From the IMG/VR virus record IMGVR_UViG_3300038441_001120, positions 1-39,759 of that record: a stretch of 39,759 nt of DNA; one strand, 5' to 3'. Under the pieces are notes generated by a model. It worked only from the letters and a program-made list of their open reading frames with translations, searched no databases and was not told where the DNA came from. Within the stretch, counting starts at the first letter, position 1, and each line of letters opens with the position of its first letter. This DNA comes from a virus. Shown here piece after piece: positions 1 to 39,759 of this stretch. Both the position numbers and the translations under genes were made by a program.

Positions 1-88
1 CATAGAAAATCCAAATTATATCCTTATTCTATGGCATTCCTTGAATTTGCGCAAGCATAAAATTTAAGGAGTTTCACATGTCCGCAAT
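1..88. repeat. Terminal direct repeat, left copy (circular overlap)
   Basis: Bases 1-88 are identical to 39672-39759 except at base 18 (A here, C at 39689). The simplest reading is that the window is a linearised circle with an 88-base assembly overlap, so the right end continues directly into the gene at 78. A short genuine terminal redundancy is the alternative. The mismatch is either a sequencing difference or a polymorphism. Confidence 0.9.
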
Positions 89-3660: not shown

Positions 3661-3843
3661 TTATTTTCCCTCCGGAACTGCAATTATTTTAGGTTTAAGG
3701 TATAGATATTCCAACTTGGTCATTCCAGGGAAATGTTTCTTAGCTAATTCGTACTCATAACTATCTCTAACGTAACACAAAATTATGACAACAGAGATTA
3801 TAAACACGATCCATATAATACATAAAAAATCATCTCGGTCCAT
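3661..3843 (-). CDS. Single-pass membrane protein, about 60 residues
   Basis: From the ATG at 3843 (AAGGA upstream) the product has a charged start (MDRDD), one strongly hydrophobic helix (about 6-26, IIWIVFIISVVIILCYV) and a soluble tail. Likely an inner-membrane protein with a cytoplasmic or periplasmic tail; no family recognised. An upstream in-frame start at 3894 would fall inside the RtcB-like remnant and lacks a good binding site. Confidence 0.5.
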   Translation of the reverse strand: MDRDDFLCIIWIVFIISVVIILCYVRDSYEYELAKKHFPGMTKLEYLYLKPKIIAVPEGK

Positions 3844-3844
3844 G

Positions 3845-4104
3845 CTAATCCTTATATGGGTCAAATTCGTTTTTAGATGCCATGCAGGCTCCAATCGGTG
3901 TTAACCTGTGTAAGACCTTAATAGTTTTGTTGTGAGCTTCTAAGACTGATTCTATGCGTTTATAGGCCATTGGGGATTCATCAAGGTCTCCACCCCTAAG
4001 CTCTACATTGGCCTTTTTCATCCAGGATTCATGGTCTACTGGGTTTACAAGGCCAGGACGGATGCAATTTCCTCGTTTATCGAACTTTCCTTATATACTA
4101 CCAT
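3845..4104 (-). pseudogene. RtcB-like RNA ligase C-terminal remnant, frameshifted
   Basis: Reading leftward from 4090 to the TAG at 3845-3847 gives about 80 residues that include CIRPGLVNPV, SWMKKANVELRGGDLDESP, MAYKRIESVLEAHNKT and a final EFDPYKD. I recognise this as the extreme C-terminal part of RtcB-family 3'-phosphate/5'-OH RNA ligases. The only ATG with a good site (4104, AAAAGGA before it) is in another frame. One added base near 4090 would join MVVYK to GKFDKRGN. The catalytic core of RtcB (guanylated His, metal-binding Cys and His) is absent and no other piece of it is seen in the window. Read it as a decayed gene, a sequencing indel or a frameshift-dependent small protein. Confidence 0.6.
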
Positions 4105-4106
4105 GA

Positions 4107-4295
4107 TTAATCCTTTTCCGTACATGACTCTGGGTTATATAAATGGTCTAACAGTTCTTTAATATCATACATCTGAAGACCTAATGGATCGCCTTTCTTT
4201 TCCAACCTTTTTAACTCATCGACAATCCCCTGACAATGAGCCTTAATTAATTTTTTAGACTCTTCAGAAGGTTCAAACCAACACATACAGGGCAT
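4107..4295 (-). CDS. Small conserved-looking protein upstream of the RtcB remnant
   Basis: 62 residues, mostly helical, with an MCWFEPSEESKKLIK start and a KELLDHLYNPESC end. AAAGGA stands 7 bases before ATG 4295. The MCW-x-P opening, the GDPLGL segment and the LLDHLY end look like a conserved family that I believe sits beside RtcB-type ligases elsewhere; that is recalled, not checked. The ATG of the remnant follows its stop by 2 bases, so the two were probably one transcription unit. Confidence 0.5.
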   Translation of the reverse strand: MPCMCWFEPSEESKKLIKAHCQGIVDELKRLEKKGDPLGLQMYDIKELLDHLYNPESCTEKD

Positions 4296-4310
4296 ATATA
4301 ATCCTTTGTT

Positions 4311-4381
4311 CGAGCTATGTAGGAATCGAACCTACGCCTGGTCTTAGACAGAGACCTATGCTTCCATTACACCAATAACCC
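4311..4381 (-). tRNA. tRNA-Asp (GTC)
   Basis: Folds as a cloverleaf. The 7-bp acceptor (GGGTTAT with ATAGCTC) has two G-T wobbles. The D arm is GTGT/GCAT and the perfect anticodon stem GGTCT/AGACC closes the loop CTGTCTA. The T arm GTAGG-TTCGATT-CCTAC is perfect. The anticodon is GTC and base 73 is G, as expected for Asp. Base 37 is T rather than a purine, which is unusual. CCA is not encoded. Confidence 0.8.
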
Positions 4382-4387
4382 ATAAAA

Positions 4388-4456
4388 ACCCCGGTAAGGG
4401 ACTCGAACCCTCATCTTTTAATCGAATAAACGTTATCACCATTCTACTAGCCGGGA
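4388..4456 (-). tRNA. tRNA-like gene with irregular anticodon arm
   Basis: Acceptor TCCCGGC/ACCGGGG pairs at six of seven positions (C7-A66 fails), and the T arm GAGGG-TTCGAGT-CCCTT is intact. The D arm pairs poorly. The best anticodon-arm register gives loop TCGATTA with C at position 33 and GAT at 34-36, closed by a stem with an A-A mismatch. Isotype cannot be assigned (Ile-GAT in that register). Either a decaying tRNA or a tRNA-like RNA. Confidence 0.5.
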
Positions 4457-4470
4457 TAGGGTGTAAGCCT

Positions 4471-4551
4471 AAGAGGATGATGGATTTGCACCAACGAAGC
4501 CGAAGCGAGAGGTTTGCAATCTCCCGGGTTTGTCTACTTCCCTAATCCTCT
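4471..4551 (-). tRNA. tRNA-Cys (GCA) with enlarged variable loop
   Basis: Perfect acceptor AGAGGAT/ATCCTCT with T at 73, the Cys discriminator. Anticodon loop TTGCAAA matches the E. coli tRNA-Cys loop. The variable region is 12 bases with a GC-TTCG-GC mini-hairpin, where Cys tRNAs normally have 4 or 5. The T loop is TGCAAAT, with G where the usual second T stands, and one T-T mismatch in its stem. The D loop lacks the usual GG. Confidence 0.65.
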
Positions 4552-4621
4552 ATGTCTAGGAGCTTTTTTACGCCTGTGCTCCACGAGTTCAACAGGCCCA
4601 TTTCTGGTTATAGTTCCATAG

Positions 4622-4716
4622 AAAGCCTTTCGGCTGATTAATTTCCCAATCCCAGCCTAAGACGTTATCTATAAGTAAAGCCTTTCGGCCGAATCAGTTA
4701 GTCCCAACGCAGGACT
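4622..4716 (-). repeat. Two spacer units with AAAGCCTTTCGGC hairpins between tRNA genes
   Basis: AAAGCCTTTCGGC occurs at 4622-4634 and 4677-4689, 55 bases apart, each followed by a related 35-40 bases. In RNA from the minus strand each forms a short GCC-GAAA-GGC stem with a GNRA-type loop and then a few T. The 3' end of the neighbouring tRNA-Asn carries a similar AAGGCTTT, 57 bases further on. They may be worn tRNA copies, processing signals or weak terminators. A 6-bp stem GCCTGT/ACAGGC at about 4572-4597 is also in this 180-base gap, and no protein gene is seen. Confidence 0.4.
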
Positions 4717-4735
4717 TGGTATTACCGTAATAGAA

Positions 4736-4808
4736 AGCCTTGTGAAGGACTCGAACCTTCCACAACCTGGTTAACAGCCAGGAGCTCTACCCTATGAGCT
4801 AACAAGGC
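4736..4808 (-). tRNA. tRNA-Asn (GTT)
   Basis: Canonical cloverleaf: acceptor GCCTTGT/ACAAGGC, D stem GCTC/GAGC with a GG-containing loop, anticodon stem CCTGG/CCAGG with loop CTGTTAA (anticodon GTT), and T arm GAAGG-TTCGAGT-CCTTC. All stems are perfect. CCA is not encoded, and base 73 is T where G is usual for Asn. The best-formed tRNA of the array. Confidence 0.92.
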
Positions 4809-4813
4809 AAAAT

Positions 4814-4837
4814 AGGGCCTTCAGACTAAAAGGCCCT
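4814..4837. other. 8-bp palindromic stem beside tRNA-Asn
   Basis: AGGGCCTT (4814-4821) and AAGGCCCT (4830-4837) form a perfect stem with an 8-base loop just upstream (minus sense) of tRNA-Asn. No T tract follows, so an RNA-processing hairpin between tRNAs is likelier than a terminator. Confidence 0.4.
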
Positions 4838-4886
4838 AAACGTTAAAAAGATCTTCTAGCTAAGGAGGTATCTTTATTAAACGTAA

Positions 4887-4957
4887 TGCCTGGTGAAGGA
4901 ATCGAACCTTCTCTCTCTGCTTATTTCACAGATGGTCTGCCACTAACCTAACCAGAC
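4887..4957 (-). tRNA. tRNA-like gene with non-canonical anticodon loop
   Basis: Acceptor GTCTGGT/ACCAGGC (one wobble), a 3-bp D stem GGT/ACC with a GG loop, and a perfect T arm GAAGG-TTCGATT-CCTTC. The anticodon stem TCTGT/GCAGA pairs fully (one wobble) but closes loop GAAATAA, which has A instead of the near-universal T at position 33. It cannot be read as a normal decoding tRNA. Identity unknown. Confidence 0.5.
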
Positions 4958-5028
4958 TAAAAGGGCCTAACAATGATAAGCCCCGAATCAGTAACCTCGA
5001 AAGGCACGGTAATTGATCTTTCAAATCG

Positions 5029-5137
5029 TGAACAGAGAGGGACTTGAACCCCCGCGCTGCATGAAAAACGCACCAGATCACCAAGCATCCCCAATGATCG
5101 CGTCTCATCCCGGCTCTACCAACTGAGCTACCTGTCC
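5029..5137 (-). tRNA. 109-base tRNA-like gene with about 36 extra bases in the middle
   Basis: The 5' half (GGACAGG, then TA, then GCTC-loop-GAGC) and the 3' half (T arm GGGGG-TTCAAGT-CCCTC and acceptor TCTGTTC) pair as one tRNA. Between D and T arms there are 59 bases where about 23 are expected. The extra part folds on itself: GATCATT with GGTGATC, and GACGC with GCGTT around it. No single anticodon arm is compelling; TTT or CAT can be read depending on register. It may be a tRNA with a small insertion, a chimera of two tRNAs, or a structured RNA using tRNA ends. Confidence 0.45.
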
Positions 5138-5569: not shown

Positions 5570-5856
5570 AACCCTATAGCTCCTATTCTCCGATGTAAGT
5601 CCTTATACTCGATCTTGGCCCTAGCAAAGGTCCCAGAGTAACTATCGATTATCTTAGACATTACCATAACCACTTTGATCAACCTGACATTGACCACATT
5701 TTCTTTTCCGACTTCCTCTTCAACCCAATCATATCCTTCCTCAACATTAAACATCTCAAGTAAAGGTATTAGGTCTTGTATGAATTTAACCTGGTGATCC
5801 ATTGTCCAAATCTCCAGAAATCCTTCAATCTGTTCTTCTAAGGTCTTTTTAGCCAT
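5566..5856 (-). CDS. Hypothetical helical protein, 96 residues
   Basis: Predicted all-helical, with Glu-rich and Lys-rich surfaces and a hydrophobic core (VVNVRLIKVVMVMSKIID). It starts at 5856 behind GGAAT and overlaps the GroES-like gene by 8 bases and the next gene by 4. No family recognised. Confidence 0.5.
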   Translation of the reverse strand: MAKKTLEEQIEGFLEIWTMDHQVKFIQDLIPLLEMFNVEEGYDWVEEEVGKENVVNVRLIKVVMVMSKIIDSYSGTFARAKIEYKDLHRRIGAIGL

Positions 5857-6115
5857 TGACGATTCCTAAAATATCTTGGTCCAGGATTAATAAATGATCT
5901 TCATCGTTCTTATCGAACATCTTACCAGAATAAGGAGCTAACAACAGTAGATCTCCGACCTCAGCTTCAGTTTCCGACTTATTCCCCTTCCCAAGCAACG
6001 TTACTTCAAAAGGCTCGTCGTTGTTCTCGATACTAAGGATAATTTTGTTCTGTGGTTTAGGTTTCTTTTGAACTAATAGGTATTTCCCAACAGGTTTAAT
6101 CATGTTATGTCTCAT
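5849..6115 (-). CDS. GroES-like co-chaperonin
   Basis: 84-88 residues with the GroES layout. A VGKYLLVQKK strand stands where GroES has DRVIVKR. A mobile-loop-like segment ends in IIL (25-27, matching the GroEL-contact IVL). Then come an EVGDLLLLAPYSG strand pair and a final LLILDQDILGIVNG, where GroES ends VLIMSESDILAIVEA. Phage co-chaperonins such as T4 gp31 replace GroES so that host GroEL can fold the coat protein. ATG 6115 overlaps the RNA ligase stop; a second ATG at 6103 is equally possible. Its partner would be host GroEL, as no GroEL gene is here. Confidence 0.72.
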   Translation of the reverse strand: MRHNMIKPVGKYLLVQKKPKPQNKIILSIENNDEPFEVTLLGKGNKSETEAEVGDLLLLAPYSGKMFDKNDEDHLLILDQDILGIVNG

Positions 6116-7067
6116 AGTTAAGGTTAATTACTTTGAACGATATAGGGCTATGGCCTTGAATCAGGTTGTTTTGCGACCTAATAACAACTCCTTCTCTTTC
6201 CTGGCCGCTAGCCTGATATTTACCCTCTCCTAGGGTTTCGACCTTATCCTTGTTAAACTCTAGGCCAACATCAAGGACCTTAACCATAGGAAAGGAAATC
6301 TCTTTGGAAAGGTCAAGTATCTCACTCATTTCCAGGTATCTATGTTCTTCGATATTATAGGCCGAAAACATCAGGCCATCTAGACCAGTAAAGCCCATTC
6401 TGTTTTTTTGGATATTAGGTCCACAGGTTTCCCACTGGATCGCATAACCTTCTGGCAGCCTTTCTTCGACCTTATGCTTCCTGGCTACTTCCCAATATCC
6501 GTTATTATGTGCATAAGCCAACTGCCAGTTCCGACTACAGACCCCAAATTCACCCTTGTATCTAAAGGCTGTAGTTGAGGCTCCGTCGGCCTTTTCAGTA
6601 ATGTAGTAAGGTTTGCCGTGTAAGGACTCCACCAGGTCGAAATGTCGTTGATAGTTCAGTTCATCGGTCTTTGGAATAAAGGACGGGAAAGGCCCTAGCG
6701 CCCTCCCTTGCATATTGCTCGGGAGCGGTTTAAAGTACTTTGTCACACGTAGAGACTCAGTAAGGTCTGTCCCTATATCAAGTCTTGTGTCGGATAAAGG
6801 CGTGATTAAGACCTCGCTAGGAGCTCCTCTAAACCTACGCATCCTTACCCGACCGCCTTTAAGGAATAAACTATCTGGATTATCTGGGTGAACAATAGCA
6901 TCCGGAAGATAGACTGTACAAAGATCACCTAAGTTAAAGTCTTCCTTCTTTACAACTCCCTTCCATTTACCCCCTTTACCACATATAACCGTAGCGCTGG
7001 AGATAAAGTCCGAATCAGGGATGTCTTGGATGTCTATTATTTTCCCCACATATGCCAGCTCAATCAT
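6105..7067 (-). CDS. RNA ligase (nucleotidyltransferase with N-terminal OB-like domain)
   Basis: 320 residues. The catalytic lysine lies in ITEKADGAS (Lys159). The other nucleotidyltransferase motifs follow in order: CSRNW (177-181), GLMFSAYNI (231-239), REGVVIRS (291-298) and SFKVIN (310-315). A separate N-terminal domain (1-110) before the ligase core resembles Deinococcus DRB0094 (Rnl5-type) ligases, which seal 3'-OH/5'-phosphate RNA nicks using ATP. Beside a tRNA array the natural substrate is cleaved tRNA. I see no dedicated end-healing kinase-phosphatase. Its start overlaps the RHH gene by 8 bases. Confidence 0.8.
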   Translation of the reverse strand: MIELAYVGKIIDIQDIPDSDFISSATVICGKGGKWKGVVKKEDFNLGDLCTVYLPDAIVHPDNPDSLFLKGGRVRMRRFRGAPSEVLITPLSDTRLDIGTDLTESLRVTKYFKPLPSNMQGRALGPFPSFIPKTDELNYQRHFDLVESLHGKPYYITEKADGASTTAFRYKGEFGVCSRNWQLAYAHNNGYWEVARKHKVEERLPEGYAIQWETCGPNIQKNRMGFTGLDGLMFSAYNIEEHRYLEMSEILDLSKEISFPMVKVLDVGLEFNKDKVETLGEGKYQASGQEREGVVIRSQNNLIQGHSPISFKVINLNYET

Positions 7068-7306: not shown

Positions 7307-7351
7307 CCGAGCCACATTAGACCTACATCCAATGTTTATCCGACACACATT
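7307..7351. promoter_or_regulatory. Partition/operator repeats, right-of-RHH cluster (2 copies)
   Basis: CCGAGCCACATT (7307-7318) and CCGACACACATT (7340-7351) are two of four copies of a 12-base motif, roughly YCGASMCACATY. The second overlaps the 3' end of parA. Another CCACAT-like word lies nearby. Repeats on both sides of parA are what a parS centromere with an operator looks like. Confidence 0.55.
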
Positions 7352-7983
7352 TTATCCACAGAATATATATGGTCATGAAGTTTTTTAATTTCCTCAACAG
7401 CCTTCTTATCTATTGGCTTTAATTCGTCTACGCTCAACCCATAAGATATCGCATTGCAAAAGGATTTACGATGGCCAATGCTCCCAACAAAGAAGTCAAC
7501 CCCACTCCATTCCTTCAAAAGATCCATTGCATCCGTATTGTCCTTACCCACAGAATCAGCCATATTAATTAAAGGTATTATTCTAAGGTTTGGGTTAACA
7601 GTCTTTATTTCACCAACCATCTCTTTAATCTTCCCTAATGGCCATAAATCTAATGTTCTAGGCTTAAAAGGAATTACAAGAACATCCGCAACACATAAGG
7701 CTGATCTCTGACTGTTTGTATCTCTTCCACCTGCATCAATAATAACATCATCATAATTCGGAGCTAATTTCAAAACCTGAGAACCAACTTTATCCCCGGC
7801 TAATTGAACAGTAGTAAGATTATCGAAATTACCGCTCCTTACATCAGCCCAATCTACTGAAGACCTTTGTTCGTCTGCATCCACCAATAACGTTAATCCT
7901 AAACTAGACCTTAATGCTGCCAAGTTCGTTGCTATAGTGGTCTTTCCTGTTCCACCCTTAATTCCACCTACTACTACTATCAT
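7336..7983 (-). CDS. parA: ParA-family partition ATPase (small, type Ib-like)
   Basis: 215 residues. The deviant Walker A is KGGTGKTT (9-16) with the signature first lysine, Walker A' is VDADEQRSS (34-42) and Walker B is VIIDAGGRD (about 79-87). It lacks the N-terminal HTH of P1-type ParA and so resembles ParF or delta proteins, which work with RHH adaptors. ParA segregates low-copy plasmids and phage-plasmids by ATP-dependent movement on the nucleoid. RHH gene downstream; repeats before and after. AGGGA precedes ATG 7983. Repression through the 8034-8078 repeats is inferred. Confidence 0.85.
   Translation of the reverse strand: MIVVVGGIKGGTGKTTIATNLAALRSSLGLTLLVDADEQRSSVDWADVRSGNFDNLTTVQLAGDKVGSQVLKLAPNYDDVIIDAGGRDTNSQRSALCVADVLVIPFKPRTLDLWPLGKIKEMVGEIKTVNPNLRIIPLINMADSVGKDNTDAMDLLKEWSGVDFFVGSIGHRKSFCNAISYGLSVDELKPIDKKAVEEIKKLHDHIYSVDKMCVG
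7352..7360 (+). promoter_or_regulatory. Perfect DnaA-box sequence
   Basis: TTATCCACA, the E. coli DnaA consensus, directly abuts the repeat at 7340-7351 and is followed by AT-rich GAATATATATGG. It lies in the last codons of parA. A one-mismatch copy TTACCCACA is near 7544-7552. Together with the repeats this could belong to a plasmid-type origin; a single box by chance cannot be ruled out. Confidence 0.35.
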
Positions 7984-12498: not shown

Positions 12499-12804
12499 AT
12501 GCAAAACTTACAAGCGCTACTTGAGAACGAAAAAGACATCTTGGCTAAAAGAAAGGCCGAGGGTCGAAATGATCTAACGGCCAGACTATTAATTGGCCGA
12601 ATAGAACTAGAAATAACTAGATTAGAAAGGAGAATTCAACATGCCGAAAGGAAAAATGAGCTTAAACATGTACGTTCCAGCAGATTTACACGAAATGCTA
12701 AAGAATTTGTCTCTAGAAACTGGCTTATCTGCTACAAGTATTGTAATTCAATATTTGGAATTCTTACAGGCACAACATCCAAGCAAGAGGAAGGTGTTAA
12801 GTGA
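12499..12804 (+). CDS. Coiled-coil protein overlapping two downstream genes
   Basis: 101 residues from ATG 12499 behind AAGGA. The first half is a clear coiled coil (LENEKDILAKRKAEG, IELEITRLERRIQH). The second half (after about 55) is basic and Cys/Asn-rich and shares its DNA with the RHH gene in the +1 frame. Its stop overlaps the recombinase start (GTGA), which argues that the whole frame is translated. Confidence 0.45.
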   Translation: MQNLQALLENEKDILAKRKAEGRNDLTARLLIGRIELEITRLERRIQHAERKNELKHVRSSRFTRNAKEFVSRNWLICYKYCNSIFGILTGTTSKQEEGVK

Positions 12805-12850
12805 GAAATCAACAACTACATTTAAGCTGGACACAACAAAGCCTAAATAG
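12641..12850 (+). CDS. Ribbon-helix-helix regulator in an overlapping frame
   Basis: 69 residues. MSLNMYVPADLHEMLKNLSL followed by GLSATSIVIQYLEF fits a beta strand, helix, turn, helix RHH fold. AAAGGAG stands before ATG 12641, a stronger site than those of its neighbours. It lies inside the 3' part of the coiled-coil gene and runs 50 bases into the recombinase gene. Likely a repressor of this operon. Confidence 0.6.
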   Translation: MPKGKMSLNMYVPADLHEMLKNLSLETGLSATSIVIQYLEFLQAQHPSKRKVLSEKSTTTFKLDTTKPK

Positions 12851-13700
12851 CTACTTAGCCGTAATTAAGCTGGAGAAGTCACCACAAACTGTATTAGCTT
12901 ATAAATATGACGTAGGTAAATTCCTGGAATATTTGACTGAAAGAAAGGTCAAAAAGGCTTCAGGAATTAAGCCTACACACATAACGGATTATTTAGGACA
13001 TTGCAAGGATCAAGGAAAGTCAGACGCAACGCTAAGTAGGTACTACATGTCCATTAGCTCCTATTGTTCTTTTTTAAGGCGAACAAAGGAAGTTACTTTC
13101 AATTTAATGGAAGACTTAAAGGCTCCAAGGTCAACCCAAAAGCCTCCAAAAGTCCTAACAAAAGAGGAGGTTGAAAGGATGCTTGACCTTCCTGACCTAA
13201 GAACTGAAATGGGTGTAAAAAATAAGGCCATACTGGAGCTGTTCTATAGTTCTGGATTACGTGTTTCTGAAATATGTAATTTAGACCTTGAAGATTTTTT
13301 AGGTGACTCTATTAGAACTACGGGAAAGCGAGGAAAGACACGCACCATTCCCATGACTGATCCTGCTATTAAGGCCATGAAGGCCTATTTAGATGAATAC
13401 CGAAACAAGGAAGACGGGCCTTTATTCCTAACTCATCACGGTCTAAGGCTTAATCGTCAACGAGTTTCGGAGATGGTCGGACAATACGCAAGGCAGATAG
13501 GAATAAAAGGAGTAACGGCCCATACTTTAAGGCATTCCTGTGCTACGCATTTACTGGATGAAGGAGCAGATATAAGGTTTATTCAGGAGGTCTTAGGGCA
13601 TAGTTCGATAGGGAGCACACAAAGGTATACGCACTTGAGTAGTAACAAGATGCAGGATATGTTTAGGCAATTTCATCCTAGAAAAGGACGAGATGAATAA
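12801..13700 (+). CDS. Xer-type tyrosine recombinase
   Basis: 299 residues with the size and layout of XerC/XerD: a SAM-like core-binding domain (5-105) and a catalytic domain. Catalytic residues are Arg154 (SGLRVSEI), Lys176 (TTGKRGKT), His241 and Arg244 (HTLRHSCATH), His267 (LGHSS) and Tyr276 (QRYTHLS). It starts at GTG 12801 in a GTGA overlap with the gene before. Xer enzymes act on 28-bp dif-type sites, either to resolve dimers or, in mobile elements, to integrate at dif. A dif-like site lies 2 kb away. It lacks the arm-binding domain of lambda-type integrases. Confidence 0.9.
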   Translation: MRNQQLHLSWTQQSLNSYLAVIKLEKSPQTVLAYKYDVGKFLEYLTERKVKKASGIKPTHITDYLGHCKDQGKSDATLSRYYMSISSYCSFLRRTKEVTFNLMEDLKAPRSTQKPPKVLTKEEVERMLDLPDLRTEMGVKNKAILELFYSSGLRVSEICNLDLEDFLGDSIRTTGKRGKTRTIPMTDPAIKAMKAYLDEYRNKEDGPLFLTHHGLRLNRQRVSEMVGQYARQIGIKGVTAHTLRHSCATHLLDEGADIRFIQEVLGHSSIGSTQRYTHLSSNKMQDMFRQFHPRKGRDE

Positions 13701-14019
13701 ATTAACGCTTGAAGAACGCAAAACTATAAAAAAACTTGTTGACAAAGGCTATACTTTATCAGAGTGTGCAAAGTTAATTGGGCGAAGAAAGAAAACAATC
13801 GTAAAAGAATTTGGTAGATTCCAAGGAAGGATTTACGACCCTGTGCAGGCTCAAAAAGAAGCTGATAAGAGGTTGGTAGACAAAAATAAAGCTGTTTCAA
13901 AGACGTTAAAAGAAAAGGACCTTTCAAACCCCTACAAGTCTCTTTTGGTGCGAATTGAATCCTTGGAGATGCAGATAGAAATTTTAAAAGATGTAATTAA
14001 GGAAATGAAGAAATGTTAA
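13693..14019 (+). CDS. IS30-type HTH protein with coiled-coil tail
   Basis: 108 residues. MNKLTLEERKTIKKLVDKGY, then LIGRRKKTIVKEFGRF and YDPVQAQKEADKR match the N-terminal HTH of IS30-family transposases (L-T-x-E-E-R, G-R-x-x-x-T-I-x-x-E), but no DDE domain follows. Instead there is a coiled coil (ESLEMQIEILKDVIKEMKK). Probably a DNA-binding accessory of the coupled ParB-fold protein, since the two overlap by 7 bases. It also overlaps the recombinase by 8. Confidence 0.6.
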   Translation: MNKLTLEERKTIKKLVDKGYTLSECAKLIGRRKKTIVKEFGRFQGRIYDPVQAQKEADKRLVDKNKAVSKTLKEKDLSNPYKSLLVRIESLEMQIEILKDVIKEMKKC

Positions 14020-14747
14020 GTACGAAAAAATACGATCAATTTAAATTCCGTGATGATAATAGAGATCAAGGAATCGACAAGAAACATCTACAACGTCTAA
14101 TTGAATCCATTAAGTCCCAAAACTTACTGGAGTTCAGGCCGATTGTTGTTAATGAATCTATGGAGGTTATTGACGGTCAACATAGGCTTACAGCAGCCAA
14201 GGAATTAGGGGTCCCTATCTACTATCAGGTAAAAAAAGATTTCCAACCTCAAGATATAATACAAATGAACATTTCTAAATCTTGGGGGATGATGGATTAC
14301 CTTAATTTTTATTGCAAACAAGGGAGCGAGTCTTATTTATCCTTGAAAAGTTTTATAGACACTCATGGCATAAACCTACGAATTGCATTAAGCCTTTGTG
14401 CATCTAGAACAGAAAAGGTTTTTAATATATTTCGGGAAGGTAAATTTGTTTTTAACCATGAATCAGCATCCCAAGATATAGGAATTTGTTGGGAGACCAT
14501 AGAGTTTGTAAAAAAAGCCAATGGAGCAAGCCTTTACACGGAGTCTAGCAGGTTTTGGAAAGCTTTAATCCTCCTTTTTCAACATCCAGAATTTTGCGTT
14601 GATACCTGGTTTAGCAAGGTCTCGAAGTTAGCGTGTAGGTTCGGAGCTCGCGCGTCAGGTAAGGAGTACGTTAAGATGGTTCAAGATATTTATAACTATC
14701 AAAATCCACGAAAGATAAAGCTTACTGGACTCCTCTGGGAAGAATAG
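14013..14747 (+). CDS. ParB/sulfiredoxin-fold protein
   Basis: 244 residues. The first 75 show the ParB-N pattern: FRDDNRDQGIDKKHLQRLIE, FRPIVVNES and then VIDGQHRLTAAKELG (the box with the nucleotide-binding Arg). The rest is helical (about 85-235) and has no clear ParB HTH. Such proteins range from CTP-dependent partition factors to DNases and regulators. It is not next to parA. It closes the rightward operon, followed by a terminator. Confidence 0.65.
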   Translation: MLSTKKYDQFKFRDDNRDQGIDKKHLQRLIESIKSQNLLEFRPIVVNESMEVIDGQHRLTAAKELGVPIYYQVKKDFQPQDIIQMNISKSWGMMDYLNFYCKQGSESYLSLKSFIDTHGINLRIALSLCASRTEKVFNIFREGKFVFNHESASQDIGICWETIEFVKKANGASLYTESSRFWKALILLFQHPEFCVDTWFSKVSKLACRFGARASGKEYVKMVQDIYNYQNPRKIKLTGLLWEE

Positions 14748-39670: not shown

Positions 39671-39705
39671 CCATAGAAAATCCAAATTCTATCCTTATTC
39701 TATGG
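39671..39705. repeat. Inverted repeat upstream of the initiator gene
   Basis: CCATAGAA (39671-39678) and TTCTATGG (39698-39705) are a perfect 8-bp inverted repeat. An inner TTCTAT (39687-39692) offers a second partner. It lies about 45 bases before the initiator ATG on the circle. The single mismatch between the terminal copies (base 18/39689) falls in the inner TTCTAT. Operator or attenuator are both possible. Confidence 0.45.
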
Positions 39706-39759
39706 CATTCCTTGAATTTGCGCAAGCATAAAATTTAAGGAGTTTCACATGTCCGCAAT
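39672..39759. repeat. Terminal direct repeat, right copy
   Basis: Right copy of the 88-base overlap with bases 1-88. It includes the inverted repeat, the binding site and the first codons of the initiator gene, so the sequence continues without a break into the left end. Confidence 0.9.

Follow-up and report, generated by a model that had tools for sequence, protein, structure and literature searches.

The window, by which we mean the whole stretch of viral DNA analysed here (39,759 nucleotides), carries on its minus strand (3845..4090) what is very probably a truncated rtcB pseudogene. It consists of 81 codons and a TAG stop, and is equivalent to residues ~312-392 of the RtcB at locus L002. 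The 81-aa translation (4090-3848, minus strand) reads GKFDKRGNCIRPGLVNPVDHESWMKKANVELRGGDLDESPMAYKRIESVLEAHNKTIKVLHRLTPIGACMASKNEFDPYKD, and the TAG occupies positions 3847-3845. Events of this kind have been seen before, and the present case looks like ordinary gene decay rather than the acquisition of a new function.

The RtcB identity of the tail is carried by profile and pairwise searches. An RtcB-like C-terminal end of about 80 codons had been proposed for this frame in the initial annotation, together with a protein search, and that search returned RtcB. The PHROG family 'tRNA splicing ligase' matches the tail with E=4.4e-9, and the full RtcB of a related phage, compared with the window by tblastn, reaches it at E=6e-28 with 65% identity. 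The Pfam profile PF01139 gives a match below threshold, with only its positions 380-423 (of 426) aligned to tail residues 27-68 at E=0.001 (18.8 bits, under the Pfam cut-off of 27). A short-RtcB PHROG, phrog_32430, with a profile of 139 positions, matches at E=2.8e-6. Such a resemblance goes far beyond chance and, judged by its sequence, the remnant is a recognisable homologue of a functional RtcB gene. It is also the sole RtcB match in the window's record. A phmmer search of the tail alone against the PDB returned 16 sequences, mostly designed TPR proteins and none of them RtcB, which we took as chance similarity summed over repeats. Full-length phage RtcBs (L010, L014, L022, L043, L074, L080 and that of the Tunturiibacter phage Tunturi_5) have in common a C-terminus ending DPYKD and are 53-70% identical to the tail. 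Counted from their likely start they measure ~386-394 aa, whereas the window gene is without the ~311 N-terminal codons.

RtcB homology in the window begins at ~4091, which corresponds to codon ~312 of 392, and an in-frame TAA stands immediately 5' of the tail. Likeness to relatives at the DNA level runs from AAGGAAA onward with none before that point, and therefore ~311 of the 392 codons are missing; the corresponding part of the gene in relatives mostly reads HGAGR..GR.QAKGK. A well-placed ATG at 4104, preceded by an AAGG-type motif recognised by eye, opens a frame of 19 codons (4045..4104, minus strand) that does not continue into the tail frame; the two meet at a junction at ~4091. That this ATG is rtcB's own start is only a guess, an idea based on six codons. 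With the TAA directly 5' and the ATG in a different frame, the tail has no complete open frame with a start codon. It had been described earlier as out of frame with the ATG by one base: the ATG does stand in another frame, but the lesion is, as the alignments read, a large 5' deletion with a stop before the tail and no point frameshift. The absence of the catalytic core, also proposed earlier, is borne out when the full-length RtcB of L074, a relative, is aligned with that of P. horikoshii (4dwr/1uc2): all catalytic Cys/His positions fall upstream of the tail. Among them is His329, which we take to be a further catalytic residue of the set besides Cys98, His203, His234 and His404; the tail thus lacks the metal-binding Cys/His and the guanylylated His of RtcB, and the remnant cannot be a ligase. 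Cys98, His203, His234 and His404 are named in a published account (PMC10630183).

Relatives of the phage still possess the complete gene. The window's TerL retrieved 55 loci in viral contigs and its RNA ligase 20, and 45 records were scanned in full, 31 of them from the 55 TerL loci and 12 from the 20 ligase loci, together with L002 and L003. Short contigs and distant TerLs were left out of the TerL set, and most of the omitted ligase loci lie on contigs already included. Full-length RtcB was present in 15 of the 45 records (open frames of 387-437 aa, no stops), while the window's record has the tail only, its 5' part being gone, in line with the initial view that an RtcB gene was lost. A weak match at L072 fell on small unrelated ORFs and was rejected. 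Thirteen RtcB contigs were mapped; in 12 of them the gene precedes a homologue of the window's ligase, in 11 by no more than ~0.65 kb, and tRNAs and TerL come next in several. The window remnant sits downstream of the RNA ligase and tRNAs, before the terminase, and its place is thus not the usual one. L067 alone among the 13 has rtcB downstream of the ligase block, there before a terminase of a different kind. Related phages were inspected for a full RtcB at this very place, as suggested at the outset: no intact rtcB was found in relatives between the window's two flanking ORFs, which in the listed loci match only the two records of this phage.

Of these flanking frames, the upstream one (62 aa; 4107..4295, minus strand) has no Pfam or PHROG match that passes the cut-offs applied, and the downstream one (60 aa from ATG 3843; 3661..3843, minus strand) received no assigned function from the ORF list and PHROG search. 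The end of rtcB and the next start read TAT AAG GAT TAG C ATG in the window, so that an AAGGA within the last rtcB codons (3849..3853, minus strand) stands 5 bases 5' of ATG 3843 and is likely to be the ribosome-binding site of the next ORF. The rtcB of L080 ends TATAAGGATTAG-CATG, as in the window, and is followed there by the RNA ligase, in the window by the 60-aa ORF.

The RNA ligase and tRNAs reported near the remnant are indeed there. The ligase is intact (320 aa; 6105..7067, minus strand), with PF09414 and a PHA02142 OB domain, and is assigned to RNA ligase by PHROG. Directly after it comes a GroES-like protein (5849-6115; PHROG co-chaperonin GroES), homologues of which follow the ligase in several relatives. 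The tRNA array (4310..5137, minus strand) holds four tRNAs according to ARAGORN and six according to the Rfam tRNA model. Asp (4310-4382), Asn (4736-4808) and Ile (4887-4957) tRNAs are accompanied by two genes missed or unnamed by ARAGORN, an unnamed tRNA at 4387-4457 and a tRNA-like gene at 4471-4551 whose anticodon is seemingly GCA, by eye, all on the minus strand; Rfam scores are 30.2 and 37.6 bits, respectively. An odd tRNA-like element (5029-5137, minus strand) has acceptor, D and T arms, and 54 bases replace 18 model positions around its anticodon arm; it could be two tRNAs fused together, or a single tRNA that is damaged or carries an insertion.

An 88-base sequence at the start of the window (1-88) recurs at its end (39672-39759), with a single mismatch at position 18, and a second record of the phage spans the joint between the two ends. 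Together these observations suggest a near-complete circle, and the window record probably represents a genome of ~39.67 kb that is circular or end-redundant. The regions 7336-7983, 12801-13700 and 13693-14747 encode a ParA-like protein, a tyrosine recombinase, an HTH protein that weakly matches ParB-HTH and a protein whose GmrSD_N match is under the cut-off. With this set of genes, the phage may live as a plasmid.

The second record (L084; IMG/VR 3300028587_000168), possibly from the same sample, has an identical junction and shows 2 differences from the window over 18,971 aligned positions. One falls in the end overlap, close to the window's first base; the second, a one-base deletion at 3975 (minus strand), breaks the tail frame in L084 and may stem from misassembly of either record. 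The exact junction was seen only in L084's contig, in a scan of viral contigs that possibly did not include the window's own record. The window tail has the consensus residue at all but 1 of 25 conserved columns, and its median pN/pS is 0.36 versus 0.38 among intact relatives. An open frame with an unraised pN/pS fits a recent truncation and would fit continued constraint as well; taken with the frame break in L084, the near-consensus tail suggests that the truncation is recent.

Broken copies of rtcB are found elsewhere. Stand-alone tails were sought among matches to the tail in viral contigs (262, of which the best 80 were taken) and in genomes (at least 555, again the best 80). In 142 of these 160 (73 viral, 69 genome) at least 250 open codons precede the tail, 11 are stopped by a contig end and 7 are short. 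Comparison of the seven with full-length RtcB identified the phage's own second record (L143) and frameshifted, gapped, tail-only or partial copies. In the viral contig L109 the linker is lost with a change of frame, the N-terminal part lying in another frame; L177 likewise has its N-terminal part in a different frame from the tail; the rtcB of L185 (Acidobacteriaceae TAA 166) is broken several times; and L232 and L233 are partial RtcB matches. L170 (Granulicella paludicola) has a tail only; on the opposite strand, an AIPR-family ORF (abortive-infection phage resistance) occupies the position expected for the 5' part of rtcB. The chromosomal remnants of L170 and L185 are at loci with an EF-Ts gene. 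Of 200 genomes drawn from the same family as that of L170, 30 matched the tail, and the frame was shorter than 150 aa at 4 of the 33 tail places among the matches listed: G046 (L170's genome), the second copy of G235, G193 and G053. In G235 (locus L247, minus strand; an EF-Ts gene nearby, by eye) an intact rtcB is followed ~0.85 kb on by a repeat of its final ~230 bases, with 95% identity between the two. The 5' edge of this copy has 12 bases in common with an upstream part of the gene, and two small ORFs, one of them aspartyl-protease-like (under the Pfam cut-off), lie between gene and copy. Finally, rtcB of Listeria phage LMTA-148 is annotated as two genes. In LMTA-148, L109, L170, L185 and G235 the RtcB tail is thus out of frame or alone, as in the window. 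Their lesions are independent of the window's, and L170, L185 and G235 are bacterial genomes.

Other explanations of the tail were weighed against truncation. The initial annotation offered, as one of two possibilities, that the lost RtcB had been replaced by a different ligase, and the window does combine an intact RNA ligase with the lack of an intact RtcB. However, a PF09414 ligase occurs in 30 of the 45 related records and in 15 of the 15 that bear RtcB (in G045 the ligase match has an internal TGA). As the second set of records was picked by its RNA ligase, only the 31 TerL-selected records inform on co-occurrence: the ligase was found in 9 of 9 with RtcB versus 7 of 22 without full-length RtcB, the latter seven being what replacement would predict (hypergeometric P=0.0006, which ignores relatedness and fragments and is only a guide since the records include many fragments and some near-duplicates). 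The order of the two genes in 12 of the 13 mapped contigs, RtcB upstream of the homologous ligase, tells the same story, and other phages have both kinds of ligase, which are thought to mend different cuts (PMC7824862). The joint presence of both enzymes in all RtcB-bearing records leaves replacement unsupported, and a functional takeover by the adjoining ligase appears very unlikely. An artefact of sequencing or assembly in an intact rtcB seems less probable still. Both records are metagenomic, they may come from one sample and their tails differ by one base, but ~311 codons would need to have vanished at the same base in each.

Production of a short RtcB-tail protein with a new role, by frameshifting from ATG 4104 or from the internal ATG 4021, would be in keeping with the open, well-conserved frame of the window, with the AAGG-type motif and ATG just upstream and with the very existence of phrog_32430. 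Yet the profile length of this PHROG fits the C-terminal half of the split rtcB in LMTA-148 (compared by length alone), and the 19-codon ATG frame has no slippery heptamer of the type X XXY YYZ (both triplets uniform). The 58-aa ORF starting at ATG 4021 (3845..4021, minus strand) has no ribosome-binding site seen by eye. The tail frame is moreover broken by one base in the near-identical second record, and the best tail matches, viral and genomic, overwhelmingly end long frames, the seven short ones being this phage or defective or partial copies. The frameshifted tail with a new job put forward earlier therefore finds no backing, and we regard a still-produced tail protein as very improbable. 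It is very doubtful, too, that the tail persists because it yields a short peptide derived from RtcB, or a translated leader with coupling to the next gene, which would bind RNA ends or an RtcB partner without catalysis. Phages are known to integrate into icd, restoring the 3' end of the gene, and the tail could in the same way be an attachment segment for integration into a host rtcB, whose 3' end the phage would then make good. The tail is open and without a start, the genome encodes a tyrosine recombinase (12801-13700) and G235 bears a second, displaced rtcB tail. Against this, the recombinase is ~8.7 kb from the tail, the two small ORFs separating the G235 gene from its second tail are not a phage and the shared edge is 12 bases, relatives carry a full-length rtcB, and the tail is up to 70% identical to phage RtcBs versus 61% to the best host RtcB found (among the best 80 of at least 555 genome matches). 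Integration of this kind is extremely improbable.

Under the preferred reading of a truncated pseudogene, a deletion would have taken the 5' four fifths of rtcB (~390 codons in relatives) and left the 81-codon 3' end. We infer that it was recent and that AAGGAAA, the point at which likeness to relatives starts, marks its junction. No ligase would be made from the remnant. The survival of the 3' end may be explained by its youth and by the ribosome-binding site of the next gene, which its last codons would contain. The nearby intact RNA ligase and tRNA array would then be the rest of the tRNA-repair cassette of relatives and no replacement for RtcB.

The remnant by itself matters little, being an ordinary gene relic. 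What it documents is that a phage tRNA-repair cassette made of RtcB, RNA ligase and tRNAs can lose its RtcB half and keep the ligase and tRNAs. This points to two ligases that deal with distinct RNA cuts, and to a need for RtcB that varies with the host. A search of the literature on phage RtcB, tRNA repair, anticodon nucleases and pseudogenes found no title on this phage group. Published work describes the ligase of phage T4 as repairing tRNA that PrrC has cleaved, and proposes that tRNAs of phages evade anticodon nucleases (PMC10264068). By analogy, the cassette may counter such tRNA cuts in this phage. An arrangement of related kind is described for the phage Privateer, in which RtcB lies ~1 kb from a tRNA cluster (PMC7881722). 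Jumbo phages are likewise described as carrying RtcB together with an ATP-grasp RNA ligase and tRNAs (PMC7824862), whereas the phage of the window has a genome of ~40 kb and has lost its RtcB.
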